Position numbers and translations under genes: made by a program. A stretch of 64,000 nt of DNA. Source: Thermoguttaceae bacterium (GTDB lineage: Bacteria; Planctomycetota; Planctomycetia; Pirellulales; Thermoguttaceae). The notes beneath the pieces were generated by a model. It made no database searches, had not been told where the DNA came from, and worked only from the letters and a program-made list of their open reading frames with translations. Below are positions 33,225 through 64,000 of this stretch, piece after piece (the first letter of the stretch is position 1; each line of letters opens with the position of its first letter). The stretch spans positions 1 through 64,000 of the forward strand of contig JAFRFG010000046.1 of assembly GCA_017434455.1 (NCBI GenBank). Reading direction: 5' to 3'.

Positions 33225-33329
33225 CTTGGGCGGCGATTCCTCCCTTGAGGGTCAGCCGTTTTTTCTAACGCCGTCACAAAAGACGACACCACTGGGTCTA
33301 AATAGAATTTCTTCCTAAGGAGCACCATC

Positions 33330-34805: not shown

Positions 34806-34886
34806 CCGCTTTCTCTCCGCGCCGCGCCACCGCACTTCTTGGCGCGGCACTTCCCGAAAAAACATTCTCCCCAAGGAGTACGACCT

Positions 34887-36350: not shown

Positions 36351-36446
36351 TCTCCCCTTGAGAGCATTGAATATCCATTTCGGACAAACCAAGCACAACA
36401 CAGAAAATCAAATACGAAACAAGCGATAAGAAGGAGAATCACAACG

Positions 36447-38831
36447 ATGAGGCAGACAACTTTTAAATATGCGGTTATCGCCGCGCTGACGGCGATGTTC
36501 GCTTTGCCGCTGTTCGCCGGGGAATCGGCGCTGCGCCTGGCCGGCGGCGGCGCGACCGACTACACCATCGTCTTGCCCGCGGAACCGACCGCCGTCCAAA
36601 AGACCGCCGCCGAGGAGCTGGCCTCTTTCTTAAGCCAGGTCACCGGCGCGCCGTTTCCGATTATCTCGGAAAACCAGATCGGGGACAAAGAGAAACTTCT
36701 GGTCATCGGGCCGAGCGCGCTGTCGAAAACGCTTCTTGCCCGCGCCGGCGCGCAGGATGAGGCGTTGATCGGGCAGGACGGGATTATTCTCCAGACGGCA
36801 GGCGACTGTCTTGTCCTCTCGGGGCATCCCGACCGCGGGCCGCTGTACGCCGTCTATACGTTCCTGGAAGATTGTGTCGGTGTCCGCTGGTGGACCAGCA
36901 CCGAATCGACCATCCCCTCACGCCCGACGCTCGAGGTCGAGGTCGCCGCGGTGCGCTACGCGCCGAAGGTGATTTCGCGCGAGTCGTTCTACCTCGATCC
37001 TTTAAGCGGTCGGGAGGGAGGAATCTTCTCGGCCCGAATGAAGACGAACGGGCACTTCAACCCGGTACCGGCCGAATACGGCGGGCACATGCCGATTCTC
37101 TTCTGGGCCCATTCGTTCGAGCAGGTTCTGCCGCCGGGCAAATATTTCGACGAGCACCCCGATTGGTACGCGCTGATCGACGGCAAGAGGGAAAAAGGGC
37201 GTCAGCTGTGTCTGACCAACCCCGAGATGAAAAAGGAGTTTATCCGCAACACGCTCGACGCCTTGCGGAAGGCGCCGGAAACACGGTTCGTCTCGGTATC
37301 GCAAAACGACTGCGGCGGCTGGTGCCAGTGCCCCGAGTGCCAGAAGCTCTTTGAGGAGAACGGCTCCCAGGCCGGGCCGCTGATCAGGTTTGTCAACGAG
37401 GTGGCCGAGGCGATTGAGCCGGAGTTCCCCAACGTTCTGGTCGAGACACTCGCCTACAACGACTCGCGGTTCGCCCCGGCCAAGGTCAAACCGCGCGACA
37501 ACGTCGTGGTTCGTCTTTGCTCGATCGAGTACTCGTTCCTCACCCCGCTGGCCGACGGCGGGCCGAACAATCAGTCGTTCGTCGACTGTGTCGAAAAGTG
37601 GAGCGCCATTTCCAAGAATCTTTACATCTGGGATTACGTCACCAACTTCTCCAACTATCTTCTGCCGCACCCGAACCTGCAGGTGCTCGCCCCGAATATC
37701 CGTTACTTCATCGATAACCACGCCGTCGGAATCTTTGAGCAGGGGGACGCCGGCTGCCCGGCCGGGGACTTTGTCCGGCTGCGCAACTGGGTGATCTCGA
37801 AGCTCCTCTGGAATCCCGATCTCGATCAATCGGCGCTGGAAGAGGAATTCCTCACCGGCTACTACTCCCCAAGAGTGGGGGCGCTTTTGCGCCGATACCT
37901 CGATGTTCTGAAACAAAGCGCGCTGAAGTCGGATATTCATCTTCGCTGCTACCGTACCAACGCGGGCGATTGGCTCAGTCCCGAGGCGCTTGTCGAGGCG
38001 ACACGGCTGATGGATCAGGCGATCGCCGCCGCCGAAGAGGACGAAAAACAAGACCCGGTCCGATTCGCCGGATTGACCAAGAAGGTCAAGCGTGAGTCGA
38101 TCCCGATTCATCTGGTCTGGGTTCGCGAGTGGCAGGATTACGACGTGGCGCTGGCCCTTCGCAAAATCCCCTCTCCGATCACCTGCTCGATGATCGATTA
38201 TTTCCGCGAGTTCAAAAACCTGCTCGAGGAGAATCAGGTTCGCTCCTACCGTGAGGGGGGCTCAAAAGAGGGTCTGGATCAGTGGCTCAACGATATCGAA
38301 CGACAGATCGACACCCTGCCGGCCAAACCGCCGAAGGAGGTCGAGGGCCTTCCGGTCGACACCTGGTACGACGCCCAGGAATCCAATTTCCGCCTGTTCG
38401 GGATCGATCAATATATCTTCCTCGAAGAGGATCCCAACGCCTCGAACCAGCGCGCCGCTCGCATGCCGGGAACTCATACCGAGTGGTCGGTCGCGTGGTA
38501 CGCCGACCGCGCCCCGATACTGAACTCCCCCACCGGGGCCGAACCGGACGAGGAGGGGCGTGTCCGCGGGAAAGTCCTCATCTACGCCCGCTGCGACGCC
38601 CCCGAGGACGGCGCGGACAAAGGAGCGATGTCGATCGGCGTTTACGACGAAACGAACAGAAAAGGTATTTGCGGCAGAACGCTCAAAAGCAGTGAAATGG
38701 CCGGGAGCGATTACAAGGTGTTCGATCTCGGGACGGTCCCGCTCGGACACGCGATCCTGATCTGGACCGCACCGATCAAAGGCGGCGTGCCGAACGTCTA
38801 CGTCGACCGAATCGTGATTATTCGTGAATAA
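36447..38831 (+). CDS. DUF4838 secreted protein, array copy 1
   Basis: 794 residues. Sec signal peptide (MRQTTFKYAVIAALTAMFALPLFAG). Domains: a GH67/GH20b-like N-terminal domain (about 28-170, DYTIVLPAEPTAVQKTAAEELASFL to RWWTSTESTIP); the DUF4838 domain (about 185-480) with Cys293-x-Cys295-xx-Cys298 and Glu431 in IFEQGD; a helical region (about 480-620); and a C-terminal sandwich-like domain (about 640-794, class A: FLEEDPNASNQRAARMPG). The family is linked to glycan-active proteins with alpha-glucuronidase-like parts, but no activity is established to my knowledge. A GAAGGAGA site precedes the start. It opens the array, 96 bp after the beta-helix genes. Confidence 0.85.
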   Translation: MRQTTFKYAVIAALTAMFALPLFAGESALRLAGGGATDYTIVLPAEPTAVQKTAAEELASFLSQVTGAPFPIISENQIGDKEKLLVIGPSALSKTLLARAGAQDEALIGQDGIILQTAGDCLVLSGHPDRGPLYAVYTFLEDCVGVRWWTSTESTIPSRPTLEVEVAAVRYAPKVISRESFYLDPLSGREGGIFSARMKTNGHFNPVPAEYGGHMPILFWAHSFEQVLPPGKYFDEHPDWYALIDGKREKGRQLCLTNPEMKKEFIRNTLDALRKAPETRFVSVSQNDCGGWCQCPECQKLFEENGSQAGPLIRFVNEVAEAIEPEFPNVLVETLAYNDSRFAPAKVKPRDNVVVRLCSIEYSFLTPLADGGPNNQSFVDCVEKWSAISKNLYIWDYVTNFSNYLLPHPNLQVLAPNIRYFIDNHAVGIFEQGDAGCPAGDFVRLRNWVISKLLWNPDLDQSALEEEFLTGYYSPRVGALLRRYLDVLKQSALKSDIHLRCYRTNAGDWLSPEALVEATRLMDQAIAAAEEDEKQDPVRFAGLTKKVKRESIPIHLVWVREWQDYDVALALRKIPSPITCSMIDYFREFKNLLEENQVRSYREGGSKEGLDQWLNDIERQIDTLPAKPPKEVEGLPVDTWYDAQESNFRLFGIDQYIFLEEDPNASNQRAARMPGTHTEWSVAWYADRAPILNSPTGAEPDEEGRVRGKVLIYARCDAPEDGADKGAMSIGVYDETNRKGICGRTLKSSEMAGSDYKVFDLGTVPLGHAILIWTAPIKGGVPNVYVDRIVIIRE

Positions 38832-38854
38832 CCTATCGAAAGTACAGAGTACCC

Positions 38855-41242
38855 ATGAGAATAACCGATCTTAGAGGCGCGGCGCTCTTCGCGCTGCTTG
38901 TTCTGTTCGCCTTACCGCTGGCCGCCGCGCAGGAGACCCTGCGCCTGGCCGACGGAGGCGCGACCGATTACACCATTGTCCTGCCCGAGGAACCGAGCGC
39001 CGTTCAAAAGACCGCCGCCGAGGAACTGGCCTCTTTCTTAAGCCAGGTCACCGGCGCGCCGTTTTCGATCATCTCGGAAAACCAGATCGCAGACAAACAG
39101 AAGCTTCTGGTCATCGGGCCGAGCGCGCTGTCGAAAACCCTTCTTTCCCACGCCGGCGCGCAGGACGAGACGTCGATCGGGCAGGACGGGATTATTCTCC
39201 AGACGGTCGGCGATTCGCTCGTCCTCTCGGGGCATCCCGACCGCGGGCCGCTCTACGCGGTCTATACGTTCCTGGAAGATTGTGTCGGCATCCGATGGTG
39301 GACCAGCACCGAATCGACCATCCCCTCACGCCCGAGGCTTGAAGTCGACGTCGCTGCGGTGCGCTACGCGCCGAAGGTGATTTCGCGCGAGTCGTTCTAC
39401 CGCGACTCCCTGCGCGGACCGGAGGCGGGAATCTTCTCGGCCCGAACAAAGACGAACGGGCACCACAACCCGGTGCCGGCCGAATACGGCGGGCACATGC
39501 CGATTCTCTTCTGGGCCCATTCGTTCGGGCAGGTTCTGCCTCCGGAGAAATATTTCGACGAGCACCCCGATTGGTACCCCTTGATCCGCGGGGAGCGGGC
39601 AAAAGACCATGTGCAGCTGTGCCTGACCAACCCCGAGATGAAGGCGCAGTTTATCCGCAATGTACTCGATGCTCTGCGGAAGGCACCGGAAACACGATTC
39701 GTCTCGGTCTCGCAGAACGACTGGGGGGGCTGGTGCCAGTGTCCCGAGTGTCAAAAGCTCTTTGAGGAAAACGGCTCCCAGGCCGGACCGCTGATCACGT
39801 TTGTCAACGAGGTGGCCGAGGCGATTGAGCCGGAGTTCCCCAACGTGTTGGTCGAGACGCTCGCCTACCAAGACACACGTTTCGCCCCGTCCAAGGTCAA
39901 GCCGCGCGACAACGTCGTGATTCGCCTTTGCTCGATCGAATACTCGTTCCTCACCCCGCTGGCCGACGACGGGCCGGCCAACGAGTCGTTTGTCGACTGT
40001 ATCGAAAAGTGGAGCGCGATCTCCAAGCAGCTTTATATATGGGACTACGTCACTAACTTCAGCAACTATATGCTCCCCCACCCGAATCTGCAGGTGCTCG
40101 CTCCCAACATCCGTTTCTTTGTGAAGAACCGCGCCGTCGGAATCTTCGAGCAGGGAGACGTCTACTGCTCGGCGGGGGACTTCGTCCGGATGCGCAACTG
40201 GGTGATCTCGAAGCTCCTCTGGAATCCTGATCTCGATCAATCGGCGCTGGAGGAGGAATTCCTCACCGGCTACTACTCCCCGCGGGTGGCGGTGATTTTT
40301 CGCCAGTACCTCGATGTGCTTAAACAAAGCGCGCTGAAGTCGAATATTCCTCTGCGCTGCTTTCGCTCCAATGCCGGCGATTGGCTCAGTGCCGAGGCGC
40401 TTGTCGAGGCGACACGGCTGATGGACCAGGCGATCGCCGCCGCCGAGGAGGACGAAAAACAAGACCCGGTCCGATTCGCCGGACTGACCGAGAAAGTCCG
40501 GCGCGAGTCGATCCCGATTCGGCTGGTCTGGATTCGTGAAGGGCGGGATTACGACACGGCGATGGCTCTTCGCGACATCCCCTCCCCGATCGCCTGCTCG
40601 ATGTCCGATTACTTCCGCGAGTTCAAAGCCCTGCTCGAGGAGAACCGCGTCTCCGGCAGCCGAGAGGGGGAGTCAAAAGAGTCTTTGGACAAGTGGCTCG
40701 ACGACCTCCAGTGGTATGTCGACGCCCAGAGAGCCGAACCGCCGAAGGAGGTCGAAGGCCTTCCGCTCGGTTCTTGGTTCGACGCCCAGGAATTCAATTT
40801 CCGCCTGGCCGGGCTCAATCGCTGGGTTTTCCTTGAGAAGGATCTCAACGCCTCGAACGGGGGCGCCGCCCGCATGCCGGGCAGTCACACCCAGTGGGCG
40901 GCCGGATGGTACGCCGATCGCGCCCCGGCGCTGATTTCCCCCAGCGGAACTGAACCTGACGAGGAGGGACGCGTCCTCGGAAGAGTTTTCCTCTACGCCC
41001 GCTGCGACGCCCCCGAAGACGGAGCGGACAAAGAGGTGATGTCTGTCGGCGTTTACGACGAGGCGAACAAAAAAGCGATCCGCGGGAAGCGGCTGACAAG
41101 CGGCGAAATGGCCGGCAGCGAATACAAGGCGTTCGATCTCGGGACGGTCCCGCTCGGACACGAGATCCTGGTCTGGGCCGCGCCGATAAAAGACGCCGCG
41201 CCGAATGTCTATGTCGACCGGATTGTGGTGATTCGCCAATAA
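38855..41242 (+). CDS. DUF4838 secreted protein, array copy 2
   Basis: 795 residues; 23 bp after copy 1, its closest relative across the whole length (same FVDC-type middle region and class A C-terminus). Signal peptide MRITDLRGAALFALLVLFALPLAAA. The Cys motif starts at Cys294 and the conserved acid is Glu432. The residue after QND is Trp (SQNDWGGWCQC) rather than the Cys of copy 1. The segment coding LYIWDY uses the rare ATA codon, as in copies 8 and 10. Helical region and C-terminal domain are intact. Confidence 0.85.
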   Translation: MRITDLRGAALFALLVLFALPLAAAQETLRLADGGATDYTIVLPEEPSAVQKTAAEELASFLSQVTGAPFSIISENQIADKQKLLVIGPSALSKTLLSHAGAQDETSIGQDGIILQTVGDSLVLSGHPDRGPLYAVYTFLEDCVGIRWWTSTESTIPSRPRLEVDVAAVRYAPKVISRESFYRDSLRGPEAGIFSARTKTNGHHNPVPAEYGGHMPILFWAHSFGQVLPPEKYFDEHPDWYPLIRGERAKDHVQLCLTNPEMKAQFIRNVLDALRKAPETRFVSVSQNDWGGWCQCPECQKLFEENGSQAGPLITFVNEVAEAIEPEFPNVLVETLAYQDTRFAPSKVKPRDNVVIRLCSIEYSFLTPLADDGPANESFVDCIEKWSAISKQLYIWDYVTNFSNYMLPHPNLQVLAPNIRFFVKNRAVGIFEQGDVYCSAGDFVRMRNWVISKLLWNPDLDQSALEEEFLTGYYSPRVAVIFRQYLDVLKQSALKSNIPLRCFRSNAGDWLSAEALVEATRLMDQAIAAAEEDEKQDPVRFAGLTEKVRRESIPIRLVWIREGRDYDTAMALRDIPSPIACSMSDYFREFKALLEENRVSGSREGESKESLDKWLDDLQWYVDAQRAEPPKEVEGLPLGSWFDAQEFNFRLAGLNRWVFLEKDLNASNGGAARMPGSHTQWAAGWYADRAPALISPSGTEPDEEGRVLGRVFLYARCDAPEDGADKEVMSVGVYDEANKKAIRGKRLTSGEMAGSEYKAFDLGTVPLGHEILVWAAPIKDAAPNVYVDRIVVIRQ

Positions 41243-41266
41243 AAGAAAGAGGATACGAAAGTACCG

Positions 41267-43672
41267 ATGAAAATATTTTCCCTGACACCCTTGGCGCTCG
41301 GCGCGCTGATTGTTTTGGCCGCCTTCCCGTTTGCCGCCGCGCAGCAGACGCTTCGCCTGGCCGACTGCGGCGCGACCGATTACACCATTGTTCTGCCCGA
41401 GGCACCGAACCCGGTACAAACAACGGCCGCCGAGGAACTGGCTTCTTTCCTCGGCCAGGTGACCGGGGCGCCTTTTCCGATTCTCTCGGAAAACCAGATC
41501 GAGGATCAGGCCTGGGACAAAGAGAAGCTCCTGGTCCTGGGCCCGGGGGAATGTTCCAAGGCGCTGCTGGCCTCGGCCGCCGCCGAGCCGGAAGGGACCA
41601 TCGGCATGGATGGGATCATTCTTGAAACGGTCGACCGGTCGATTGTGCTGTCGGGGCATCCCGAGCGGGGGGCGCTGTACGCCGTCTATACCTTTTTAGA
41701 AGATACTGTCGGTATCCGCTGGTGGACCAGCACCGAATCGACGATCCCCCGTCAGCCGACTGTGGAGATTCCTCCGCTGTCTGTGCGTTATGAGCCGCCA
41801 CTGCTTTCGCGCGACGTCCATTACATGGAAACGTACAAGGGAGAAGGCAGCTTGATCTTCTCGGCCCGCAGAAAACTCAACTGCCGAAGAAGTTTCGGCA
41901 GCACTGCCGACGCCGCCCCCGAACCATACGGCATCTCCTCCGTCGCGGCCGGTTCTTTTTATCTGATACTCCCCCCCAAAGAGTACTATGACGAACATCC
42001 CGAGTGGTATTCGCTGAATAACTCCAAGCGCTCCAGTTCCGGTGCTCAGCTTTGCCTGACCAATCAGGAAATGCGCGAGGAATATATCCGCCGGACGCTC
42101 AAGAAGCTGCGGGAGAACCCCGAGATAAAAATCATCTCGATCTCGCATAACGACAACAACCGCTGGTGCGAGTGCCCCGAGTGCAGGAAACTCGTCGAGG
42201 AGAACGGCTCCCAGGCGGGGCCGCTTTTGGACTTTCTCAATCCGATCGCGGAGCGGATCGAAAAAGAGTTTCCCGATGTCATCATCGAGACGCTCGCCTA
42301 TCGGAAGTCCCGCCCCGCGCCGACAAAAATCCGGCCGCGCGATAATATCAGAATCCGCTTTTGTACGATCGAAGGTTCGTTCTTAACGCCAATCTCGGAA
42401 GGGGGCCCGAATCAGTCGATCTTAACCGATCTGGAAAATTGGTGCGCCGTCTCGAACAATGTCGCACTGTGGGATTACGTCACCAACTTCCACAACTACA
42501 TGCTCCCCCATCCGAACCTGCAGGTTCTTTCTCCCAATATCCGCCTGTACGCCAAAAACAACGTCGTCGGTGTTTTTTTGCAGGGAGACAATTGGTGCGC
42601 GGCGGGAGACTTCGTCCGGATGCGCTGCTATGTACTTTCGAAACTCCTTTGGGATCCGACGCTCGACCAGCGGGAAGTGGAAGATGAATTTCTGGCCGGA
42701 TACTATTCTCCGAAGGTCGCCGCGATTTTGCGTGAGTATCTCGATCTGATCACCGAAACGGCCCTGCGTTCCCATATCTTCCTGCGCTGCTATATGCAGA
42801 CAACGTACAGCTGGCTCGACACGCCGACCTTGGTCGAGGCCACCGAGCTGATGAACCGGGCGATCGACGCGGCGCGCGAAGACGAAGAGCTCTTCCCCGA
42901 GCGTTTCGCCGGTTTGGCAGATAAAGTCAAACGTGAGTCGATCCCCGCGCGTCTGGCTTGGCTGCGCGACTGGCCCGATCGCCAAAACGATCTTGCCCGC
43001 GGCGCTCTCCCCTCCCCCGCGTCGGATGGAGCCGACTATTTCGAGGAATTTCGGGAACTCTTAAAGGCAAACAACGTCGACTGCGCGGTCGAAGGAAAAA
43101 AAGGACAATTCAGCGGCTGGCTCGATGTTCTTCAACAATACGTCCAAACCGAGGCGATCGTTCCGGAGGAGGTACGGGATCTTCCCGACAACACGTGGTA
43201 CGATCTGGAAGAGTACGGAATGAACCTCGGCCTCTACGGCAAGTATACCTTTCTGGAGGACGATGCCGCCGCGCAGAACGGCCGGGCGGTTCGAATCACC
43301 GGCGACCACCACGAGTGGGTCATCGGCTGGGAGAGCAGCCGGCTCTTTTCGCTCGATTCCCCGTCGGGGGCCGGTCTCGATGAAAAGGGAAATCTGCGGG
43401 TCCGGGTGATTCTGCGCGCTCGGTGCCAGGCCGCCGACGGCGATGACGGCAGCGCGCTGACTATCGGGATGGGACTCTATGACGGAACGCGATCGAAAGA
43501 CCTCTTCCGTCGGACATTAAAGACGACGGAGCTGGGAAAGGATCAGTACCGGTCGATCGATCTGGGAACGGTCTCGATCCCCGAGGGAACGCGCCTTTGG
43601 ATCGCCCCGACCGACCGCCCCGAGGCGGTTCAAAATCTTTATGTAGATCGGGTTGTGTTCATTCGTCAGTAA
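41267..43672 (+). CDS. DUF4838 secreted protein, array copy 3 (divergent)
   Basis: 801 residues; 24 bp after copy 2. Signal peptide MKIFSLTPLALGALIVLAAFPFAAA. This is the most divergent copy. The loop reads SHNDNNRWCECPECRKL with Cys301, and the Glu found in all other copies is Leu438 (VFLQGD). The segment before it reads NNVALWDYVTNF instead of KQLYIWDYVTNF, and the middle of the DUF4838 domain has RRKLNCRRSFGSTADAAPEPYG where others have RMKMNGHFNPVPAEYGG. C-terminal domain of class B (FLEDDAAAQNGRAVRITGDHHEW). It may be a binding protein that has lost catalysis, if the family is catalytic. Confidence 0.85.
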   Translation: MKIFSLTPLALGALIVLAAFPFAAAQQTLRLADCGATDYTIVLPEAPNPVQTTAAEELASFLGQVTGAPFPILSENQIEDQAWDKEKLLVLGPGECSKALLASAAAEPEGTIGMDGIILETVDRSIVLSGHPERGALYAVYTFLEDTVGIRWWTSTESTIPRQPTVEIPPLSVRYEPPLLSRDVHYMETYKGEGSLIFSARRKLNCRRSFGSTADAAPEPYGISSVAAGSFYLILPPKEYYDEHPEWYSLNNSKRSSSGAQLCLTNQEMREEYIRRTLKKLRENPEIKIISISHNDNNRWCECPECRKLVEENGSQAGPLLDFLNPIAERIEKEFPDVIIETLAYRKSRPAPTKIRPRDNIRIRFCTIEGSFLTPISEGGPNQSILTDLENWCAVSNNVALWDYVTNFHNYMLPHPNLQVLSPNIRLYAKNNVVGVFLQGDNWCAAGDFVRMRCYVLSKLLWDPTLDQREVEDEFLAGYYSPKVAAILREYLDLITETALRSHIFLRCYMQTTYSWLDTPTLVEATELMNRAIDAAREDEELFPERFAGLADKVKRESIPARLAWLRDWPDRQNDLARGALPSPASDGADYFEEFRELLKANNVDCAVEGKKGQFSGWLDVLQQYVQTEAIVPEEVRDLPDNTWYDLEEYGMNLGLYGKYTFLEDDAAAQNGRAVRITGDHHEWVIGWESSRLFSLDSPSGAGLDEKGNLRVRVILRARCQAADGDDGSALTIGMGLYDGTRSKDLFRRTLKTTELGKDQYRSIDLGTVSIPEGTRLWIAPTDRPEAVQNLYVDRVVFIRQ

Positions 43673-43708
43673 GTAAGATCGGACAGCAGGTAAGCAGGAT
43701 TGTTTCCG

Positions 43709-46099
43709 ATGAAAAAATTCCCCGCAGCCCGCGCGGTGTTTTTCGCGCTGTTTGTTTTGATTACCCTCCCACCCCTTGCCGCGGAAGAGATACTCCGCCT
43801 GGCGGACAACGGCGCGAGTGACTACACCGTTGTCCTCCCTGATCATCCCAGCGCGGTTCAAAAGACCGCCGCCGAGGAACTGGCCTCGTTTCTCGGTCAG
43901 GTCACCGGGGCCGAGTTTCCGATTCTCTCGCAAGAGCAGGCCAAAGATAAACAGAAGCTCCTGGTCATCGGTCCGGGAGAACTGTCGAAACAAATGCTCG
44001 CCTCGGCCGGCGCCGAGCCGGAGGAGACCATCGCCCAAGACGGGATCATCGTTCAGACGGTCGGCGGCAGTATTGTCTTCTCGGGGCATCGAGACCGCGG
44101 CCCGCTGTACGCGGTCTATACCTTTCTGGAGGATATCGTCGGCTGCCGATGGTGGACCGGTACCGAGTCGACCATCCCTTCGCGGCCGACGCTCGATATC
44201 GAGGCGGTTCACTTGCGCTATGCGCCGAAAGTCATTTCAAGGGAAGCGTATTATCGCGATCCTCTCGACGGCCGTGAGGGAGGAATCTTCTCCGCTCGGA
44301 TGAAGATGAACGGGCACTTCAATCCGGTACCCGCCGAATACGGCGGCCACATGCCGATCCTCTTCTGGGCCCATTCGTTCGAGCAGGTTCTTCCGCCGGA
44401 AAAATATTTCGAGGAACACCCCGATTGGTACTCGCTGGTCGACGGCCAAAGGAGAGGCGAGGGGCAATATCAGCTTTGCCTGACCAATCCGGAAATGAAG
44501 GCGGAGTTTATCCGCAACACCCTCACCGCCCTGCGGTCTAACCCCGATACGCGTATTGTCTCCGTCTCGCAAAACGACCGCGACGGCTGGTGCCAGTGCC
44601 CCGAGTGTCAAAAATTGGCGGAGGATAATCTCTCGCAGTCGGGACCGCTGATCACCTTCGTCAACGAGGTGGCCGAGGCGATCGAACAAGAGTTCCCCAA
44701 CGTTTTGGTCGAGACGCTCGCCTATAATCAATCACGCCCGGCGCCCGCCAAGGTTCGGCCGCGGGACAATGTTCTGATACGTCTTTGTACCGGCGGCAAT
44801 TCCCTCGTGATCCCCCTGGAAGAAGGGGGCCCCAATCAATCGCTCGCGGCGGTTATCGAGAGCTGGAGCGCGATCTCCAAGCAGCTTTACATCTGGGATT
44901 ACGTTACCAACTTCCACAACTATTTGCTCCCTCACCCCAACCTGCGGGTACTGGCTCCCAATATCCGCTTCTTTGTCAAAAACCACGCCATAGGGATCTT
45001 CGAGCAGGGGGACGCCGGCTGCTCGGCGGGGGACTTTGTCCGAATGCGCCATTGGGTACTCTCCAAACTTCTTTGGAACCCCTCCCTCGATCAAACGGCG
45101 CTGGAGGACCAATTTCTAAACGGATACTACTCTCCGCGGATCGCCGCGCTGTTTCGTCAGTACCTCGACGTTCTCCAACGCGGCGCGCTCCAGTCCGAAA
45201 TTCCGCCGAGCGGTTCACCGCAGAGCACCCAAGAATGGCTCAGCACCGAAACGCTTGTCGAGGCGACGAAGCTCATGGATCAAGCCATCGCCGCGGCGCG
45301 GGAGGACGAAGAGAATGATCCGATCCGTTTCGCGGGACTGACACGGAAGGTCACCCGTGAGTCGATCCCGATTCGATCCGTCTGGATCGATCAGTGGCGC
45401 GCCCGCGACGCGGAGATGGCCGTCGCCGGGATTCCCTCCCCCATCGCCTGTCCCATGATCGACTACCTTCACGAATTCGTTTCTCTGCTGCGGGAAAATC
45501 ACGTTGAATGGGTCCGAGAGGAATGGCAGGGGAAAGAGGAATTGGATCGGCGGCTTGCCGTCTTGGAACAACTGTTCGGCGCCCCGGCGGCCGAGCCGCC
45601 CGCGCAGGTCGAAGGGCTTCCGGCCGATTCCTGGTTCGACGTCCAGGAACCGTATTTCCGTCTGTCGGGGCTGGGGTATTGGGTCTTTCTCGAAGAGGAC
45701 CCGAACGCCTCAAACAAGCTGGCCGCCCGCATGCCGACCGACCATACCCAGTGGGCCGCCGCTTGGAACAGCGACCGCGCCGAGGCGCTTGTTTCGCCGG
45801 CGGGTACCGAACCCGACTCCGACGGCCGCCTTAGCGCGCGGGTACTTCTCTTCGCCCGATGTGACGCGCTCCCCCGCGGTGAGGATCGAGGCGCGATGGC
45901 TGTCGGTATTTATGACGAAACGGCCAAAGAAGGTCTCTTTACCCGAGTTCTCACGAGCGGTGAACTGGCCGGGAGTGATTACAAGCTCTTCGATCTCGGG
46001 ACTTTCCCCCTCGGGAAGGGCATCTTGATCTGGACCTCGCCGTTTGACCGGACCGTGCCCAACGTCTATATTGATCGTATCGTGGTTATTCGTCAGTGA
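43709..46099 (+). CDS. DUF4838 secreted protein, array copy 4
   Basis: 796 residues from the ATG at 43709; a TTG nine bases earlier is in frame but less likely. 36 bp after copy 3. Signal peptide MKKFPAARAVFFALFVLITLPPLAA. The Cys motif starts at Cys295 (SQNDRDGWCQCPECQKLAEDNLSQSG, with Arg after QND); Glu432 is present. The central segment RLCTGGNSLVIPLEEGG departs from the usual RLCTIENSFLTPLEEGG. It combines a class-A-type C-terminus (FLEEDPNASNKLAARMPTDHTQW), like copies 1 and 2, with a middle region more like copies 5-9. Confidence 0.85.
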   Translation: MKKFPAARAVFFALFVLITLPPLAAEEILRLADNGASDYTVVLPDHPSAVQKTAAEELASFLGQVTGAEFPILSQEQAKDKQKLLVIGPGELSKQMLASAGAEPEETIAQDGIIVQTVGGSIVFSGHRDRGPLYAVYTFLEDIVGCRWWTGTESTIPSRPTLDIEAVHLRYAPKVISREAYYRDPLDGREGGIFSARMKMNGHFNPVPAEYGGHMPILFWAHSFEQVLPPEKYFEEHPDWYSLVDGQRRGEGQYQLCLTNPEMKAEFIRNTLTALRSNPDTRIVSVSQNDRDGWCQCPECQKLAEDNLSQSGPLITFVNEVAEAIEQEFPNVLVETLAYNQSRPAPAKVRPRDNVLIRLCTGGNSLVIPLEEGGPNQSLAAVIESWSAISKQLYIWDYVTNFHNYLLPHPNLRVLAPNIRFFVKNHAIGIFEQGDAGCSAGDFVRMRHWVLSKLLWNPSLDQTALEDQFLNGYYSPRIAALFRQYLDVLQRGALQSEIPPSGSPQSTQEWLSTETLVEATKLMDQAIAAAREDEENDPIRFAGLTRKVTRESIPIRSVWIDQWRARDAEMAVAGIPSPIACPMIDYLHEFVSLLRENHVEWVREEWQGKEELDRRLAVLEQLFGAPAAEPPAQVEGLPADSWFDVQEPYFRLSGLGYWVFLEEDPNASNKLAARMPTDHTQWAAAWNSDRAEALVSPAGTEPDSDGRLSARVLLFARCDALPRGEDRGAMAVGIYDETAKEGLFTRVLTSGELAGSDYKLFDLGTFPLGKGILIWTSPFDRTVPNVYIDRIVVIRQ

Positions 46100-46115
46100 A
46101 AAAAGGGAAATACCG

Positions 46116-48485: not shown

Positions 48486-48495
48486 AGGAACCTTT

Positions 48496-50907: not shown

Positions 50908-50933
50908 GATTCGTCCAGCAGGATTATTACCCC

Positions 50934-52799: not shown

Positions 52800-52861
52800 A
52801 AACAGAATCTCTCTGTTCCGAACGGAATGATACTTTCGGCGATACCCGGAGAAAAACACCG

Positions 52862-54805: not shown

Positions 54806-54890
54806 GAATCCTTTTTTTCGGCGCGTCCCCAGCGGTAGAATACTTAACGAGAAAATGAATAATGATTCGCGAACATCAGGAGCCATACTG

Positions 54891-57290
54891 ATGAAACTAT
54901 CCCCGCTTAAAAACGCCGCGGCCGCCTTGGTGATGGCGCTGGTGACCTTTGCGATTTTCGCCGAGGAAGAAACGCTTCGCCTGGCCGACGGTGGGGTGAC
55001 CGACTACAGCGTTGTCCTCCCCGAAACGCCGACGGCGGTTCAGCGGACCACGGCCGGGGAGCTGGCGTCGTTCCTAAACCAAGTGACCGGGGCGACCTTT
55101 CCGATTCTCTCGGAAAGTCAGGTGGAAGAACAGGCCAAGGATAAAGAAAAGCTCCTGGTCATCGGCCCGGGTACGCTGTCGAAACGGCTGCTCGCCTCGG
55201 TCGGTGCCGAGCCGGAAGAGTCGATCGGCCGGGACGGGATCATTATCCAGCCGGCAGGAGAGTCGATCGTCTTTTCCGGCCACCCGCGCCGTGGACCGCT
55301 GTACGCCGTCTATACGTTCCTGGAAGATTGTGTCGGCTGCCGCTGGTGGACCAGTACCGAGTCGACCATCCCCGAGCGGCCGACGCTCGATATCGAGGTA
55401 CCCCAAACCCGATACGCGCCGAAGGTGATCTCGCGCGAATCGTTCTGCCTGGACGCGCGCCAGGGAAACGCCGGGGGAATCTTCTCCGCCCGGATGAAGA
55501 TGAACGGGCATTACAACCCCGTTCCCCTCGAGTACGGCGGACACGAGCCGTTCTGTCTGTTTGTCCATTCCTTCTATCCGATCCTTCCCCCGAAGGACTA
55601 TTTCGCCGAGCATCCCGACTGGTACGCCTTGGTCGACGGCCAGCGCCAGGACAAGAACGCGCAGCTGTGCCTGACCAATCCCGAGATGAAGGAGCAGTTT
55701 ATCCGCAACGCGCTGCGCTTCCTCGACGATGATCCCGACGCGAGAATCATCTCGATCAGTCAGAACGACTGCGGCCGGTGGTGCCAGTGCCCCGAGTGTC
55801 AAAAGCTTGTCGATGAAAACGACTCCCAGGCCGGTCCGCTGATCACCTTTGTCAACGACGTCGCCGAGGCGATCGAGAAAGAGCGCCCCGACGTTTTGGT
55901 CGAGACACTCGCCTATCAGGAGTCCCGCTTCGCGCCGAAGGTGGTCCGTCCGCGGGACAATGTGATCATTCGGCTGTGCACGATCGAGAATTCCTTTCTT
56001 ACCCCGCTGGAAGAGGGGGGACGCAATCAATCGCTCCTCGAGCATATTGAAAAATGGAGCGCCATCTCCAAGCAGCTCTTCATCTGGGATTACGTCACCA
56101 ACTTCATCAACTATATGCTCCCGCACCCGAACCTTCAGGTCCTGGGGCCGAACATTCGCTTCTTCGTCAGAAACAAAGCCGTCGGAATCTTCGAGCAGGG
56201 GGACAACTTTTGCCCGGCGGGGGACTTTGTCCGGATGCGCAACTGGGTGATCTCTAAGCTCCTGTGGAACCCGGATCTGGATCAGCGCCGGCTGGAAGAT
56301 GAGTTCTTAAACGGCTACTACTCCCCCAAGGTGGGGGCGATTCTGCGCCGGTATCTCGATCTTTTGACCGACCGCGCGGTCAAATCCGACGTCAATCTGC
56401 GCCTCTATATGGAGTCGGCCTTTGGCTGGCTCGATACGGAAACGCTGATCGAAGCGACTAAGCTCATGGATCAGGCCCTCGCCGCGGCGCGCGAAGACGA
56501 AGAACTTTCTCCGGAGCGCTTCGCCGGCCTGGCCGATAAAATCGAGCGCGAATCGATACCGGTTCATCTGGCCTGGCTGCGCGACTGGCCGAACCGCCGG
56601 ATCGATCTTGCCGCGCGCAATCTCCCTTCCCCCGTCGGTGATATCGAGGACTATTTTCAAGAGTACCGGGCGCTTCTGGAAAAGTACCGCGTCGACTGCG
56701 CCGCGGAAGGGAGAAAGGCCATCTTCGGGGAATGGCTCGATGAGCTTCACGAATCGCTCTCGACCTGCGTCGTCGTTCCGGATGAGGTCAAGGATCTCGC
56801 GAACGACACATGGCTCTGCGTGGAGGAATTCAATGTGAGACTTGGCGGCCAAGGGAAGCAATCCTTCCTGGAAGACGACGCCGAGGCGGGGAACGGCAAG
56901 GCGATTCGTCTTGCGGGTGATCACCACGATTGGTCCATCCAGTGGGATGTCTCCGGACTGGAACGCCTGCGCTCAGGGGCCGGCGCGCCTCCCGACGAGA
57001 GGGGCTATGTCAAAGCGCGGATCCTTCTGCGCGCCCGGTGCGACGCCGCCGATGGGGACGACGGGGACGCCTTGAGTATTGGGGTCTACGATAAGGATAC
57101 GAAAGGGCGCGTTTTCCTGAAGACACTGAAGACATCCGAGCTCAGCCGGGACGGGTACGAAATCGTCGACCTCGGGGTTCTTCCCGTCGAAGGTTCCGCC
57201 ACCGCCACGCTTTTTTGGTTCGCTCCTACCGAGCGTCCCGACGCGGTACAGAATATTTATATCGACCGGATGGTCCTCATCCGAGAATAA
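54891..57290 (+). CDS. DUF4838 secreted protein, array copy 9
   Basis: 799 residues from the ATG at 54891, eight bases after CAGGAG. Signal peptide MKLSPLKNAAAALVMALVTFAIFA. The Cys motif starts at Cys298 (QNDCGRWCQC, Arg in place of the second Gly); Glu435 is present. The middle region has the SLLEHIEKWS form. Full-length, with class B C-terminal domain (FLEDDAEAGNGKAIRLAGDHHDW). It is the last member of the LRLADGG N-terminal class; the next three copies have another N-terminal class. Confidence 0.85.
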   Translation: MKLSPLKNAAAALVMALVTFAIFAEEETLRLADGGVTDYSVVLPETPTAVQRTTAGELASFLNQVTGATFPILSESQVEEQAKDKEKLLVIGPGTLSKRLLASVGAEPEESIGRDGIIIQPAGESIVFSGHPRRGPLYAVYTFLEDCVGCRWWTSTESTIPERPTLDIEVPQTRYAPKVISRESFCLDARQGNAGGIFSARMKMNGHYNPVPLEYGGHEPFCLFVHSFYPILPPKDYFAEHPDWYALVDGQRQDKNAQLCLTNPEMKEQFIRNALRFLDDDPDARIISISQNDCGRWCQCPECQKLVDENDSQAGPLITFVNDVAEAIEKERPDVLVETLAYQESRFAPKVVRPRDNVIIRLCTIENSFLTPLEEGGRNQSLLEHIEKWSAISKQLFIWDYVTNFINYMLPHPNLQVLGPNIRFFVRNKAVGIFEQGDNFCPAGDFVRMRNWVISKLLWNPDLDQRRLEDEFLNGYYSPKVGAILRRYLDLLTDRAVKSDVNLRLYMESAFGWLDTETLIEATKLMDQALAAAREDEELSPERFAGLADKIERESIPVHLAWLRDWPNRRIDLAARNLPSPVGDIEDYFQEYRALLEKYRVDCAAEGRKAIFGEWLDELHESLSTCVVVPDEVKDLANDTWLCVEEFNVRLGGQGKQSFLEDDAEAGNGKAIRLAGDHHDWSIQWDVSGLERLRSGAGAPPDERGYVKARILLRARCDAADGDDGDALSIGVYDKDTKGRVFLKTLKTSELSRDGYEIVDLGVLPVEGSATATLFWFAPTERPDAVQNIYIDRMVLIRE

Positions 57291-57301
57291 GGAGAACATC
57301 G

Positions 57302-59179
57302 ATGTTCAAGACAGCAAAAATCACGGCATTAGCCATCATCCTCCCGCTTGCTTTGGCAAGCGTGTCAAACCTCTTCGGCGTCGAGGCGCCGGCGCTGACG
57401 CTCTTCGGCGAGGGGGGCTCCCCCTGCCCGATCGTTCTTCCCGATCAGCCCAGCGCCGTTCAAAAGACCGCCGCCGAGGAACTGGCATCGTTCCTCCGTC
57501 AGGCGACCGGAGCGGAGTTTCCGATCATCAGTGAAAGCGCCGCCGATGATCGGGGGGTGAACCTTGTCATTGGCCCGAGCGAACTGTCGAAGAAACTGCT
57601 TGCCTCGGCCGGCGCCGAGCCGGAAGATACCATCACTCAAGACGGCATCATCCTCCAGACGGCCGGCAACAGTATTGTCCTTTCCGGTCACCCGCGGCGC
57701 GGGCCGCTGTACGCCGTCTATACGTTCCTGGAAGATTATGTCGGCATCCGATGGTGGACCAGCACCGAATCGTTCATTCCGAAGCTGACCTCTTTGGAAG
57801 TTCCCCTTTTGGCGACCCGCTACGCGCCGAGGGTGATCTCGCGTGAGACGTACTATCTGGATCCCCACAACGGGCTTGAGGGAGCCGTCTTCTCGGCGCG
57901 GACGAGGACCAACGGGAACTTCAACGAAATCCCCGAAGAATTCGGCGGGCACGAGCGTTTCTATCTGTTCGCCCACTCCTTCTACCCCACCCTTCCGCCG
58001 GAGAAATATTTCGACGAGCATCCCGAATGGTACTCTTTGGTCGACGGTAAACGAACTTACGACAGGGCGCAGCTGTGCCTGACTAACCCCGAGATGAAGA
58101 AACAGTTCATCCGCAATACGCTGAGGATTCTCGACGAGAACCCGGGAATAAAAATCATCTCGGTCAGTCAAAACGACTGCGGCGGCTGGTGCCAGTGCCC
58201 CGAGTGTCAAAAGCTCAGCGACGAGAACGGTTCCCAGGCCGGGCCGCTGATAGCGTTTGTCAATGAGGTCGCCGAGGCGGTCGAGGAAAAGTATCCCGAC
58301 GTTTTTGTCGAGACACTCGCCTACCAGGATTCCCGCTTCGCGCCGGCGAAGGTCAGGCCCCGCGACAACGTTCTGATTCGGCTGTGCTCGTTTGAGTGTT
58401 CCTACCTGACGCCGCTGGCCGACGGAGGGGCGAGCAACGGTTCGTTCGTCGACTGCATTGAAAAGTGGAGCGCCATCTCCAAACAGCTTTATATATGGGA
58501 CTATGTCACTAACTTTCCAGAACTGATGCTCCCGCATCCGAATATCCAGGTGCTGGGACCGAATATAAGTTTCTTCGTCCGGAACAAAGCCATCGGTATC
58601 TTCGAGCAGGGTGACGCCGACTGCTGGGCCGGGGACTTTATCCGTCTGCGCAACTGGGTAATCAGCAAGCTCCTCTGGAACCCGGATCTCGATCAGCGGC
58701 AACTGGAAAACGAGTTCTTAAGCGGCTACTACTCCCCCCGGGTCGCGGCCGTCCTGCGCGAGTATCTCGACCTTCTCAGCGACCGCGCCGTTCGATCCGG
58801 TATAAATCTTTATAATGAAATGGGGACGACCACCGGCTGGCTCGATACGGAAACTCTCCTTAAGGCGACCGACCTGATAAACCGGGCGATCGACACCGCC
58901 CGCGAGGACGAGGCGTCCGATCCGGAGCGTTATGCCGGGTTGGTGAAAAAGGCCGAGCGCGAATCGGTTCCGATCCGGTACGTCTGGCTTTTGGACGGCA
59001 AAGCTCACCTTCCCTATCTCGAAGAATTGGGGGCCGACTCGCCCCTGTCCGGCGATATGAACGCCTACTATGAAAAGTTCAAAGAGATCCTCGCCGAAAA
59101 CCATGTCACCGCGAACAACGCCTGGCGATGCGGCGGGTTCGAGCAATGGCTCGACGCGCTGCGGCCGAGCGCGCCCTAA
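57302..59179 (+). CDS. DUF4838 secreted protein, array copy 10, short form without C-terminal domain
   Basis: 625 residues from the ATG at 57302, after AAGGAGAA; 11 bp after copy 9. Signal peptide MFKTAKITALAIILPLALASVSNLFG, nearly the same as copy 11. First of the second N-terminal class (LTLFGEGGSPCPIVLP). The Cys motif starts at Cys297; Glu435 is present. The middle region has the FVDCIEKWS form of copies 1 and 2. It ends at EQWLDALRPSAP, where copies 11 and 12 continue into the C-terminal domain. LYIWDY uses ATA. The 85-bp gap after it contains TTTATCAGAGAA, resembling a FIRE coding end. Confidence 0.85.
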   Translation: MFKTAKITALAIILPLALASVSNLFGVEAPALTLFGEGGSPCPIVLPDQPSAVQKTAAEELASFLRQATGAEFPIISESAADDRGVNLVIGPSELSKKLLASAGAEPEDTITQDGIILQTAGNSIVLSGHPRRGPLYAVYTFLEDYVGIRWWTSTESFIPKLTSLEVPLLATRYAPRVISRETYYLDPHNGLEGAVFSARTRTNGNFNEIPEEFGGHERFYLFAHSFYPTLPPEKYFDEHPEWYSLVDGKRTYDRAQLCLTNPEMKKQFIRNTLRILDENPGIKIISVSQNDCGGWCQCPECQKLSDENGSQAGPLIAFVNEVAEAVEEKYPDVFVETLAYQDSRFAPAKVRPRDNVLIRLCSFECSYLTPLADGGASNGSFVDCIEKWSAISKQLYIWDYVTNFPELMLPHPNIQVLGPNISFFVRNKAIGIFEQGDADCWAGDFIRLRNWVISKLLWNPDLDQRQLENEFLSGYYSPRVAAVLREYLDLLSDRAVRSGINLYNEMGTTTGWLDTETLLKATDLINRAIDTAREDEASDPERYAGLVKKAERESVPIRYVWLLDGKAHLPYLEELGADSPLSGDMNAYYEKFKEILAENHVTANNAWRCGGFEQWLDALRPSAP

Positions 59180-59264
59180 GCGCGTGTACCGCGGGGAAAC
59201 GATTGTTGTTTACCAGTGAAAAAGAATCTGTTTATCAGAGAAAATAGAATAAGGAGAAGCATTG

Positions 59265-61661
59265 ATGTTCAAGGCAGCTAAGTTCGCGGCATTAGCCATC
59301 ATCCTCCCGCTTGTTTTGGCAAGCGTGTCAAACCTGTACGGCGCTGAGGCGCGGACGCTCACCCTCTTCGGCGAGGGGGTCTCCCCCTCCCCGATCGTTC
59401 TTCCCGAGGAGCCGAGCGCCGTACAAAAGACCGCCGCCGAGGAACTGGCCTCGTTCCTCGGCCAAGTGACCGGAGCGGAATTTCCGATCATCGGCGAAAG
59501 CGCCGCCGACCAGCGGGGAGTGAATCTCGTCATCGGCCCGAGCGCCCTGTCGAAGAAGCTCCTGGCCGCCGCCGGCGCCGAGCCGGAAGAGACCATCGCT
59601 CAAGACGGTATCATTATTCACAGCGTGGGAAACAGCATTGTCTTTTCCGGCCACCCGCAGCGCGGGCCGCTGTACGCCGTCTATACGTTCCTGGAAGATG
59701 TCGTCGGCATTCGATGGTGGACCAGCACCGAATCGTTTATTCCCCACAAGACGCGGCTGGAAATATCTCCCCTGGCGATCCGCTACGCGCCGCGAATCAT
59801 CACGCGCGAGGCGTTTTACCTTGACCCGCGCGATGGACAGGCCGGAGGCATCTTCTCCGCACGAGTCAAGGCAAACGGCAATTCCAACCCTATTCCCCCC
59901 GAGTACGGCGGACACGAGACATTCTGTTTTTTTGTCCATTCTTTCTACCCGATTCTTCCCCCGGAAAAATATTTTGACGAGCATCCCGAATGGTATTCTC
60001 TGGTCGACGGGGTGCGGACGCACGACCGGGCGCAGCTGTGCCTGACCAACCCCGAGATGAAGAAGGAGTTCATCCGCAACGCGCTGCGTTTCCTCAAAGA
60101 CGACCCCGACGCGAGAATCATCTCGATCAGCCAGAACGATTGGGGGGGCTGGTGCCAGTGCCCCGAATGTCAAAAACTCGTCGATGAGAACGGTTCTCAG
60201 GCCGGACCGCTGATCACCTTTGTCAACGATGTCGCCGAAGCGATCGAGAAAGAACATCCCGACGTCTTCGTCGAGACGCTCGCCTACAGCGATTCCCGCT
60301 TCGCGCCGAAGAAGGTCAAGCCCCGCGACAACGTTCTGGTTCGGCTGTGCTCGATCGAATACTCTTTCCTCACTCCCCTGGCCGAGGGGGGGACTTATAA
60401 TCAGTCGTTTGTCGACTGCCTCGAGAAATGGAGCGCCATCGCCAAACAGCTCTACATCTGGGACTACGTCACCGACTTCAGCAACTACATGCTCCCGCAT
60501 CCGAACCTTCAGGTGCTCGCTCCCAATATTCGGTTCTTCGTGAAGAACCGTGTCATCGGTGTCTTCGAGCAGGGAGACACCTACTGTACGGCGGGGGACT
60601 TTGTCCGTCTGCGCAACTGGGTGATCTCCAAGCTGCTCTGGAACCCGGACCTCGATCAGCGCCAATTAGAAGAGGAGTTCTTAAACGGCTATTATTCCCC
60701 GAAGGTCGGTGCCATTTTGCGCGAGTATCTCGACGTTCTTACCGAAAGCGCGCTGCGCAGCGACGTCAATCTGCGCTGCTATATGTATTCGACCACCGAT
60801 TGGCTCGACACGACATCGCTTCTGAAGGCGACCGACCTGATGAACCGGGCCATCGACGCCGCCCGGGAGGATGAAGCGTCCGACCCCCGGCGCTATGCCG
60901 GTTTGGTGAAAAAGCTCGAGCGCGAATCGATCCCGATCCGGTACGTTTGGCTTTTGGACGGCCGCTCTCACCTCCCCTTCCTCGAACGCCTGGGGATCGA
61001 CTCGCCGCTGTCCTGCGATAGGAACGCGTACTACGAACAGTTCAAAGAGCTTCTCGCCGAAAACCAAGTCGTCACGGCCAATGAGTGGCAGGACCCGAAT
61101 TTCGAGAAATGGCTCGACTCACTGAAGCCGCGCCCGATCCCCAGCGTCCGCTCGTATCCTCCCCAGGTGAAAGAGCTTCCGAATGACTGCTGGATCGATA
61201 CCCACGAGGACGACTGGATGACTGCCGGAATCGGGGAATGGATCTTCTCCGAGGACGATCCGAAGAGCTGCGACGGCCGGACGATCCGCATCGCCGGCAA
61301 CCACCATCAGTGGATCATTATGAAGGAAACCGGCGCAATGAAACTCCTGAATTCGCCTTCCGGCAGCCCCCTCGACGAAGAGGGGCATTTCCGCGGGCGT
61401 ATCCTCCTTTCCGCCCGCTGCGACACGACTGAGGGGGCCGAGGGCGAGGCGCTGGATGTCGGCATCTACGACTGGAAAAGCAAAAAAGGAATCTACGGCC
61501 GCGCTTTGACCGTCGATGAGCTCGCCGGAGACGACTACAAGACAATCGACCTGGGGGAAGTGGAACTGGGGAACAACCTTCAGTTCTGGGTCGCCCCGAA
61601 GAACCGCCCCGAGGAGGTTCCGAATATCTACGTCGACCGGATCATCTTCATCAGACAGTAA
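59265..61661 (+). CDS. DUF4838 secreted protein, array copy 11
   Basis: 798 residues from the ATG at 59265, eight bases after AAGGAG. Signal peptide MFKAAKFAALAIILPLVLASVSNLYG. Second N-terminal class (LTLFGEGVSPSPIVLP). The Cys motif starts at Cys297 with Trp after QND (as in copy 2); Glu435 is present. Full-length with a third type of C-terminal domain (class C: FSEDDPKSCDGRTIRIAGNHHQWIIMKETG). Overall closest to copy 12, with long nearly identical nucleotide stretches, pointing to a recent duplication. Confidence 0.85.
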   Translation: MFKAAKFAALAIILPLVLASVSNLYGAEARTLTLFGEGVSPSPIVLPEEPSAVQKTAAEELASFLGQVTGAEFPIIGESAADQRGVNLVIGPSALSKKLLAAAGAEPEETIAQDGIIIHSVGNSIVFSGHPQRGPLYAVYTFLEDVVGIRWWTSTESFIPHKTRLEISPLAIRYAPRIITREAFYLDPRDGQAGGIFSARVKANGNSNPIPPEYGGHETFCFFVHSFYPILPPEKYFDEHPEWYSLVDGVRTHDRAQLCLTNPEMKKEFIRNALRFLKDDPDARIISISQNDWGGWCQCPECQKLVDENGSQAGPLITFVNDVAEAIEKEHPDVFVETLAYSDSRFAPKKVKPRDNVLVRLCSIEYSFLTPLAEGGTYNQSFVDCLEKWSAIAKQLYIWDYVTDFSNYMLPHPNLQVLAPNIRFFVKNRVIGVFEQGDTYCTAGDFVRLRNWVISKLLWNPDLDQRQLEEEFLNGYYSPKVGAILREYLDVLTESALRSDVNLRCYMYSTTDWLDTTSLLKATDLMNRAIDAAREDEASDPRRYAGLVKKLERESIPIRYVWLLDGRSHLPFLERLGIDSPLSCDRNAYYEQFKELLAENQVVTANEWQDPNFEKWLDSLKPRPIPSVRSYPPQVKELPNDCWIDTHEDDWMTAGIGEWIFSEDDPKSCDGRTIRIAGNHHQWIIMKETGAMKLLNSPSGSPLDEEGHFRGRILLSARCDTTEGAEGEALDVGIYDWKSKKGIYGRALTVDELAGDDYKTIDLGEVELGNNLQFWVAPKNRPEEVPNIYVDRIIFIRQ

Positions 61662-61693
61662 AAACGTGTTTGTCAAAGGATAGGAAAATAACG

Positions 61694-64000
61694 ATGTATA
61701 AGACAGCTAAGATCACGATCCTCGCCGCGGCGCTCCCGCTGCTGGCGGCGTTTCTGTCGGCCACCTTTGGCGGCGAGGCGCCAGCGCTCAAGATCTTCGG
61801 CGAGGGGGTCTCCCCCTGCCCGATCGTTCTTCCCGAGGAGCCCAGCGCCGTTCAAAAGACCGCCGCCGAGGAACTGGCCTCGTTCCTCCATCAGGTGACC
61901 GGAGCGGAATTTCCGATCATCGGCGAAAGCGCCGCCGACCAGCAAGGGGTGAATCTCGTCATCGGCCCGAGCGCGCTGTCGAAGAAGCTCTTGACCGCCG
62001 CCGGCGCCGAGCCGGAAGAGACCCTCGCTCAAGACGGTATCATTATCCACAGCGTGGGAAACAGCGTTGTCTTTTCCGGCCACCCGCAGCGCGGGCCGCT
62101 GTACGCTGTCTATACGTTTCTGGAAGATGTCGTCGGCATTCGATGGTGGACTAGTACCGAATCGTTCATTCCCAAAAAGCGGGAATTGGAAGTTCCTCCT
62201 CTGGCGATCCGCTACGCGCCGCCGATCATCTCGCGTGAGGCGTTCTATCTCGATCCCCACAACGGGCGAGCCGGGGGAATCTTCTCGGCGCGGATGAAGG
62301 CCAACGGACACTTTCACAATGTTCCCGAGGAATACGGCGGGCACATCACCATCCTCTATCTGGTCCATACCTTCTACCCGATCCTCCCGCCGGAAAAATA
62401 TTTTGACGAGCATCCCGAGTGGTACGCCTTAGTCGGCGGCCAGCGGCAGCGCGCCGGGGCGCAGCTGTGCCTGAGCAACCCAGAGATGAAGAAACAGTTC
62501 ATCCGCAATACGCTGAGGATTCTCGAGGAGAACCCGGGAACAAAGATCATCTCCGTCAGCCAGAACGACTGCGGCGGCTGGTGCCAGTGCCCCGAGTGTC
62601 AAAAGTTAGTCGATGAGAACGGCTCTCAGGCCGGGCCGCTGATCAGGTTCGTCAACGACGTGGCCGAAGCGGTGGAAGAAAAGTACCCCGACGTCCTGGT
62701 CGAGACGCTCGCCTACCAGGATTCCCGTTTCGCGCCGACAAAGGTTAAGCCCCGCGACAACGTTCTGGTTCGGCTCTGCTCGATCGAGTACTCGTTCCTG
62801 ACCCCACTGGCCGACGGCGGGGTGTACAACGAGTCGTTTGTCGACTGCATTGAGAAATGGAGCGCCATCGCCAAACAGCTCTACATCTGGGATTACGTCA
62901 CCAACTTCAGCAACTATATGCTCCCGCATCCGAACTTTCAGGTGCTGGCTCCCAACATTCGTTTCTTCGTGAAGAACCATACCGTCGGCTGTTACGAGCA
63001 GGGGGACGCGGAATGTTCGGCCGGGGACTTTGTCCGGCTGCGCAACTGGGTGATCTCCAAGCTCCTTTGGAACCCGGACCTCGATCAGCGCCAACTGGAG
63101 GATGAGTTCTTAAACGGCTACTATTCCCCCCGCGTCGGGGCCATTCTGCGCGAGTATCTTGACGTTCTCACCGAAAGCGCGCTGAGGTCCGACGTCAATC
63201 TGCGCTGCTATATGATGTCGACCACCGCCTGGCTCGACACCGAATCGCTTCTTAAGGCGACCGATCTGATGAACCGGGCGATCGACACCGCCCGGGAAGA
63301 TGAGGCGTCCGACCCGCAGCGCTATGCCGGTTTAACGAAAAAGTTAGAGCGCGAATCGGTTCCGATCCGGTACGTCTGGCTTCTGGACGGCCGCGCCCAT
63401 CACCCCTTCATCGAGCGTCTGGGGCTCGACTCGCCGCTGTGCGGGGACATGAACGCGTACTACGAGAAGTTCAAAGAGATCCTCACCGAAAACCACGTCG
63501 CCACGGCCAAAGAATGGCAGCAGAAGAATTATCAGCGATGGCTCGACTCACTGCGGCCGCGCGAGATGCCGTCCATCCACTCGTATCCTCCCCAGGTGGA
63601 AGAGCTCCCGAACGACTGCTGGATCGATACCCATGAGGCGGATTGGGTCACTTTTGGGATCGGGGAATGGATCTTCCCCGAGGACGACCCGAAGAGCAGC
63701 GATGGCCGGACGATCCGTATCGCCGGCAACCACCATCAGTGGATCATTATGCGGGACACCGACGGATTGAAGATCCTCCGCTCCCCGTCCGGCAGCGCTC
63801 CCAGCGAAGAGGGGCGTTTCCGCGGACGGGTACTCATTTCCGCCCGCTGCGACACGACCGAGGGGGCCGCGGGGGAGGCGCTCGATGTCGGTATTTACGA
63901 CTGGAAAAACCGAAGGGGAACCTACGGCCGCGCCCTGACCGTCGACGAACTGGCCGGCGATGATTACAAGACGATCGATCTGGGGGAGATGGAACTGGGG
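61694..64000 (+). CDS. DUF4838 secreted protein, array copy 12, partial (3' end outside window)
   Basis: 769 residues are visible from the ATG at 61694 to the window end, with no stop; some 30 more are expected. Signal peptide MYKTAKITILAAALPLLAAFLSATFG. Second N-terminal class (LKIFGEGVSPCPIVLP). The Cys motif starts at Cys297; Glu435 lies in CYEQGD. Class C C-terminal domain (FPEDDPKSSDGRTIRIAGNHHQW) reaching DDYKTIDLGEMELG. 32 bp after copy 11. The array may continue beyond the window. Confidence 0.85.
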   Translation, partial: MYKTAKITILAAALPLLAAFLSATFGGEAPALKIFGEGVSPCPIVLPEEPSAVQKTAAEELASFLHQVTGAEFPIIGESAADQQGVNLVIGPSALSKKLLTAAGAEPEETLAQDGIIIHSVGNSVVFSGHPQRGPLYAVYTFLEDVVGIRWWTSTESFIPKKRELEVPPLAIRYAPPIISREAFYLDPHNGRAGGIFSARMKANGHFHNVPEEYGGHITILYLVHTFYPILPPEKYFDEHPEWYALVGGQRQRAGAQLCLSNPEMKKQFIRNTLRILEENPGTKIISVSQNDCGGWCQCPECQKLVDENGSQAGPLIRFVNDVAEAVEEKYPDVLVETLAYQDSRFAPTKVKPRDNVLVRLCSIEYSFLTPLADGGVYNESFVDCIEKWSAIAKQLYIWDYVTNFSNYMLPHPNFQVLAPNIRFFVKNHTVGCYEQGDAECSAGDFVRLRNWVISKLLWNPDLDQRQLEDEFLNGYYSPRVGAILREYLDVLTESALRSDVNLRCYMMSTTAWLDTESLLKATDLMNRAIDTAREDEASDPQRYAGLTKKLERESVPIRYVWLLDGRAHHPFIERLGLDSPLCGDMNAYYEKFKEILTENHVATAKEWQQKNYQRWLDSLRPREMPSIHSYPPQVEELPNDCWIDTHEADWVTFGIGEWIFPEDDPKSSDGRTIRIAGNHHQWIIMRDTDGLKILRSPSGSAPSEEGRFRGRVLISARCDTTEGAAGEALDVGIYDWKNRRGTYGRALTVDELAGDDYKTIDLGEMELG

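Follow-up and report, generated by a model that had tools for sequence, protein, structure and literature searches.

A thirteen-copy tandem array of DUF4838 genes in a planctomycete genome, probably an old expansion of a secreted GH163-like glycosidase

What maintains many versions of one apparently exported protein side by side in a bacterial genome? This question is raised by a stretch of 64,000 nucleotides (the window; C15:1-64000) from a Thermoguttaceae genome of 3.8 Mb in 66 contigs (91.7% complete). The host is presumably a gut planctomycete, as its relatives are named Thermoguttaceae and one of the same genus (G079, locus L156) is from yak gut. The original prediction, made from the letters alone, had placed twelve tandem DUF4838 genes on one strand, with the last cut by the window edge. 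All 12 plus-strand open reading frames between 36447 and 64000 matched PF16126 (DUF4838) over the whole profile length, with E-values of 6e-93 to 4e-99 (Pfam; eleven scanned within the window, the twelfth whole from the contig). Extension along the contig completed copy 12 and revealed a copy 13 with a 27-residue insertion, making the array even longer than predicted (Table 1). All 13 copies score 312-332 bits (curated cut-off 26.6), and most also contain a GH67N-type N-terminal match above cut-off (Pfam). NCBIfam gave no name for these proteins.

Intergenic gaps of 10-85 bp, as predicted, were reproduced with the start codons chosen in this analysis, on which these figures depend. The N-termini of all copies combine a basic n-region, a hydrophobic core and an A-x-A-like site, in agreement with the predicted signal peptides as judged by a simple heuristic and not a trained predictor. 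The copies are also all open, as claimed, with no internal stops. The four-part architecture proposed for every copy holds for nine, the C-terminal domain being absent from copies 7, 8, 10 and 13. None of the terminator-like sites listed in the window falls within an array gap, and the gene spacing is consistent with a single operon. A scan of the window for Rfam families and tRNAs found none.

Table 1. Features of the array and its flanks. Positions are those of contig C15.
Feature	Position	Strand	Remarks
Terminator-like stem-loop	31607-31646	+	18 pairs, strong; consensus scan only
GH28-like beta-helix gene a	31755-33224	+	weak PF00295 match, under cut-off; 85-88% identical to b and c
GH28-like gene b	33330-34805	+	85-88% identity within trio
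GH28-like gene c	34839-36350	+	PF00295 above cut-off; 3' end collinear in sister species
DUF4838 copy 1	36447-38831	+	794 aa; PF16126; orthologue in G083, 99.1% (aa)
DUF4838 copy 2	38855-41242	+	795 aa; PF16126; orthologue dS 0.10, dN/dS 0.165
DUF4838 copy 3	41267-43672	+	801 aa; PF16126; H222, Q286, E431 replaced (copy 1 numbering)
DUF4838 copy 4	43709-46099	+	PF16126; E361G
DUF4838 copy 5	46116-48485	+	PF16126
DUF4838 copy 6	48496-50907	+	PF16126; N287D
DUF4838 copy 7	50934-52799	+	PF16126; without C-terminal domain; E361G
DUF4838 copy 8	52862-54805	+	PF16126; without C-terminal domain; Q432E
DUF4838 copy 9	54891-57290	+	PF16126
DUF4838 copy 10	57302-59179	+	PF16126; without C-terminal domain
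DUF4838 copy 11	59265-61661	+	PF16126
DUF4838 copy 12	61694-64000 (cut by window edge; end 64090)	+	PF16126
DUF4838 copy 13	64103-66064 (beyond window)	+	PF16126; without C-terminal domain
Two tandem GH10 genes	66152-68942 (outside window, 3' of array)	+	87% identical

The array is part of an island of three GH28-like, 13 DUF4838 and two GH10 genes, all on one strand and spanning 37 kb. The stem-loop 5' of the GH28-like trio is likely its upstream limit. The GH28-like genes are tandem duplicates with no further close copy elsewhere in the genome, and beyond the GH10 pair the genome has just one weak GH10 match. Since trio and pair also arose by tandem duplication, three carbohydrate-enzyme families have each been amplified in one island. 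The flanking genes would point to plant cell-wall polymers. Note that the trio (31755-36350) has twin-arginine-like N-termini (SRRTFL), and that one relative, at 48%, is present in the same family (G114).

The locus can be compared with that of a sister species, the MAG RUG14274 (G083; 'uncultured planctomycete'). Contigs of G083 matched C15:35801-42750 with 94.6% identity (left border, copies 1 and 2 and a type-3 gene), C15:49183-52569 with 96.9% identity (copy 6-7 junction) and C15 from 68609 onward with 88-92% identity (right border, starting within the second GH10 gene), in the same order as in the window genome. The G083 contigs break inside the array; breaks within repeats are common in short-read assemblies. 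Near 41551, inside copy 3, identity falls abruptly to 72-88%, and the third gene of G083 has a copy-3 head joined to a different type-3 body (dS 0.49 and dN/dS 0.26 relative to copy 3, the closest copy tested). This suggests either recombination within the gene or another type-3 paralogue at this place in G083; less probably, the junction stems from a contig end that is chimeric. In view of the altered gene, the array content seems to differ between the two species. The domain swaps of the original prediction are supported by the head/body junction in G083, but not by proof within the window genome. There, many copy pairs share short identical tracts (~14-104 bp) in a GENECONV-like permutation test, which ignores rate variation along the gene and therefore does not prove conversion.

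DUF4838 genes had been stated to occur usually as one or a few per locus, and our survey agrees. Matches were present in 93 of 119 genomes of the same family, few per genome in most, and in 12 DUF4838-rich genomes of the family (7-21 matches each) the genes are dispersed. At 78 related loci outside RUG14274, at most two DUF4838 genes occur together. Eleven further genomes reached via related loci have up to 34 such genes each, mostly single or paired even where there are 16-34. The largest other cluster among those listed consists of three adjacent genes (C72:42887-51072) in Lentisphaeria Tb.RUG.64 (G731; 31 matches genome-wide). It resembles the array in gene adjacency, but no more than three genes are close together, a fourth is ~8 kb away and the reading frames are longer (about 1160-1255 aa). 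The 13-copy run is far longer than in any relative examined. Note that draft assemblies can hide arrays. In an order-level sample of 297 genomes up to 7 candidates were scored per genome, so arrays there are still possible, and the phylum survey, with only two candidates scored per genome, gives no basis for counting arrays.

A tree of 112 proteins placed the 13 copies together with their G083 counterparts in one clade (support 100, stem branch 0.55) with nothing else inside, indicating that the array is a lineage-specific tandem expansion. The subgroups were copies 10-13; copies 1, 2 and 4; copies 3, 5, 6, 7 and 9; and copy 8 alone, the inner forks being less certain with the quick method used. 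Core identity between copies is 56-87%. Paralogues differ by a dS of 0.37-1.4 with a dN/dS of 0.17-0.31 (Nei-Gojobori; neighbouring and close pairs computed), compared to a dS of 0.05-0.13 and a dN/dS of 0.135-0.25 for copies 2, 6 and 7 relative to their G083 orthologues. Thus, even the youngest duplications are older than the species split, and the copies are old and have been kept. The low dN/dS in both comparisons supports the predicted selection for many variants, and the values between copies, well below 1, give no sign of decay. For copy 1 the orthologue dS is 0.007, possibly due to recent exchange. The copy 1 region (36051-38800) is ~99.6% identical to G083 locus L064, and neighbouring copy 2 is ~96% identical.

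An AlphaFold2 model of copy 1 (mean pLDDT 94.3) was compared with the PDB by Foldseek. The best matches were GH115, then GH84, GH138, GH67 and GH20 enzymes, with E-values of 1e-11 to 4e-21 and probability 1.00, at an overall TM of only 0.4-0.5 (GH115 about 0.45-0.5). The model combines a GH67N-like domain with a barrel, as in the GH67/GH115/GH84 fold group. These families, including the GH115/GH67 alpha-glucuronidases, share this domain order with the DUF4838 copies, but the sequence match is confined to the N-terminal domain and identity over the fold alignment is ~10%; no catalytic-domain sequence match to GH67 or GH115 was found. A PDB sequence search with DUF4838 found no solved structure of the family, and a single-sequence search was empty. 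Uronic acids or N-acetylhexosamines are the targets of some enzymes in the nearest-fold families. The C-terminal domain (pLDDT 97.1) resembles CBM22, CBM35 and CBM4 sandwiches with a TM of about 0.5-0.6. A Cry protein sandwich scores similarly, and the CBM resemblance therefore speaks to fold only.

PMC9870897 lists a DUF4838 protein of Polaribacter under GH163, and a Bacteroides GH163 enzyme is endo-acting and takes antennae off complex N-glycans (PMC10154615). The array proteins have the same Pfam domain with full-length matches, the link to CAZy GH163 running via this literature listing. They differ in forming thirteen tandem copies with individual changes. Membership of GH163 would entail endo-beta-N-acetylglucosaminidase activity.

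Residue conservation was judged relative to 94 relatives (copy 1 numbering). No copy has lost D288 or any of C255/C293/C295/C298, and E361 and E431 are both present in 10 of 13. The original prediction of lost residues was right for copies 3, 4, 6, 7 and 8 (Table 1). Near-invariant positions are affected in copy 3 (all three replaced residues), in copies 4 and 7 (E361) and in copy 6 (N287D), and the changes of copies 3 (same type), 6 and 7 recur in G083. Without near-invariant acids, some of copies 3, 4 and 7 are perhaps non-catalytic. Positions 339, 362 and 381 are conserved in relatives and hypervariable in the array, and single hypervariable sites adjoin conserved acids. Active-side loops were not significantly enriched in diversification when set against other parts of the barrel (p = 0.29; loops defined from secondary structure, not model coordinates).

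The array probably goes back to an old tandem amplification, specific to this lineage, of a gene for a secreted GH163-like glycosidase (DUF4838), which diversified within a carbohydrate-degradation island. Through repeated local duplication and recombination between copies, enzyme variants would have arisen that share a conserved barrel core but differ in residues close to it and in whether they carry a CBM-like domain. The products would be exported, probably to the periplasm, where the variants may differ in which linkages or decorations of a single complex glycan they cleave. The analysis shows the array, one origin for its copies, their conservation in a sister species, purifying selection and a predicted fold; that the proteins are catalytic, what they act on, how labour is divided among them, where in the cell they reside and that their genes are co-transcribed are parts of this scheme that we infer. 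The findings suggest that selection has favoured a range of enzyme variants directed at a complex sugar polymer. Among the roles first proposed, a glycan-degrading battery fits the predicted fold, the GH163 listing and the GH28-like and GH10 flanks; its element of one specificity per copy is not matched by the loop result. Zobellia PL7 lyases are collocated in-paralogous CAZymes for which subfunctionalisation has been proposed (PMC8073546). They too are same-family paralogues in a polysaccharide locus, but small numbers per locus are described for them, compared to 13 in one run here.

Might the array instead be an assembly artefact or in decay? The sister genome is a MAG whose contigs end within the array, and the window genome, being incomplete, may be a MAG too. 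However, an artefact is unlikely because the sister species shares the left border, internal junction and right border in order. The check for an artefact did not bear one out: two separate assemblies agree at several junctions, and the two most similar copies, 1 and 2, still differ by ~16% in nucleotides. Decay was ruled out by the open frames and the dN/dS well below 1. We regard artefact or decay as scarcely credible. It is distinctly unlikely that the copies serve gene dosage, with more product from many copies and divergence as drift around one function. The conserved core of all copies and purifying selection would fit, but dosage arrays usually stay similar, whereas here core identity is as low as 56%, dS reaches 1.4 and the type-specific changes N287D and E361G are shared with the sister species.

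A diversified glycan-binding (lectin-like) or surface repertoire, with some or all copies non-catalytic and recombination making variants, is unlikely as well, although the residues lost from copies 3, 4 and 7, the losses in 3 and 7 being kept in G083, and the head/body junction in the third gene of G083 would suit it. It is opposed by the retention of D288 throughout and of both glutamates in most copies, by four copies lacking the CBM-like domain and by the N-termini, at which no lipobox-like cysteine pattern is evident. Of the binding set originally proposed, pure binding is most plausible for the copies with lost conserved residues. A mixed scheme seems rather unlikely: segments would be exchanged by recombination, distinct enzymes or glycan-binding pseudoenzymes kept, and one operon would provide a combinatorial set of variants that recognise a complex glycan as it changes.

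A GH97-type gene at 28575-30569 is encoded on the minus strand and is oriented divergently with respect to the island. Bacteroidota-type polysaccharide utilisation loci have a SusC/SusD-like pair beside their CAZymes; no such pair was found among the main open reading frames scanned from 28575 to C15:79226. If the array is a glycosidase expansion, a single genome presents 13 naturally occurring paralogues of a barely characterised family, and these can be set against their counterparts in a sister species. Side-by-side study of the copies would reveal how specificity evolves in GH163-like enzymes, and whether tandem arrays in gut planctomycetes take the role that polysaccharide utilisation loci have in Bacteroidota.
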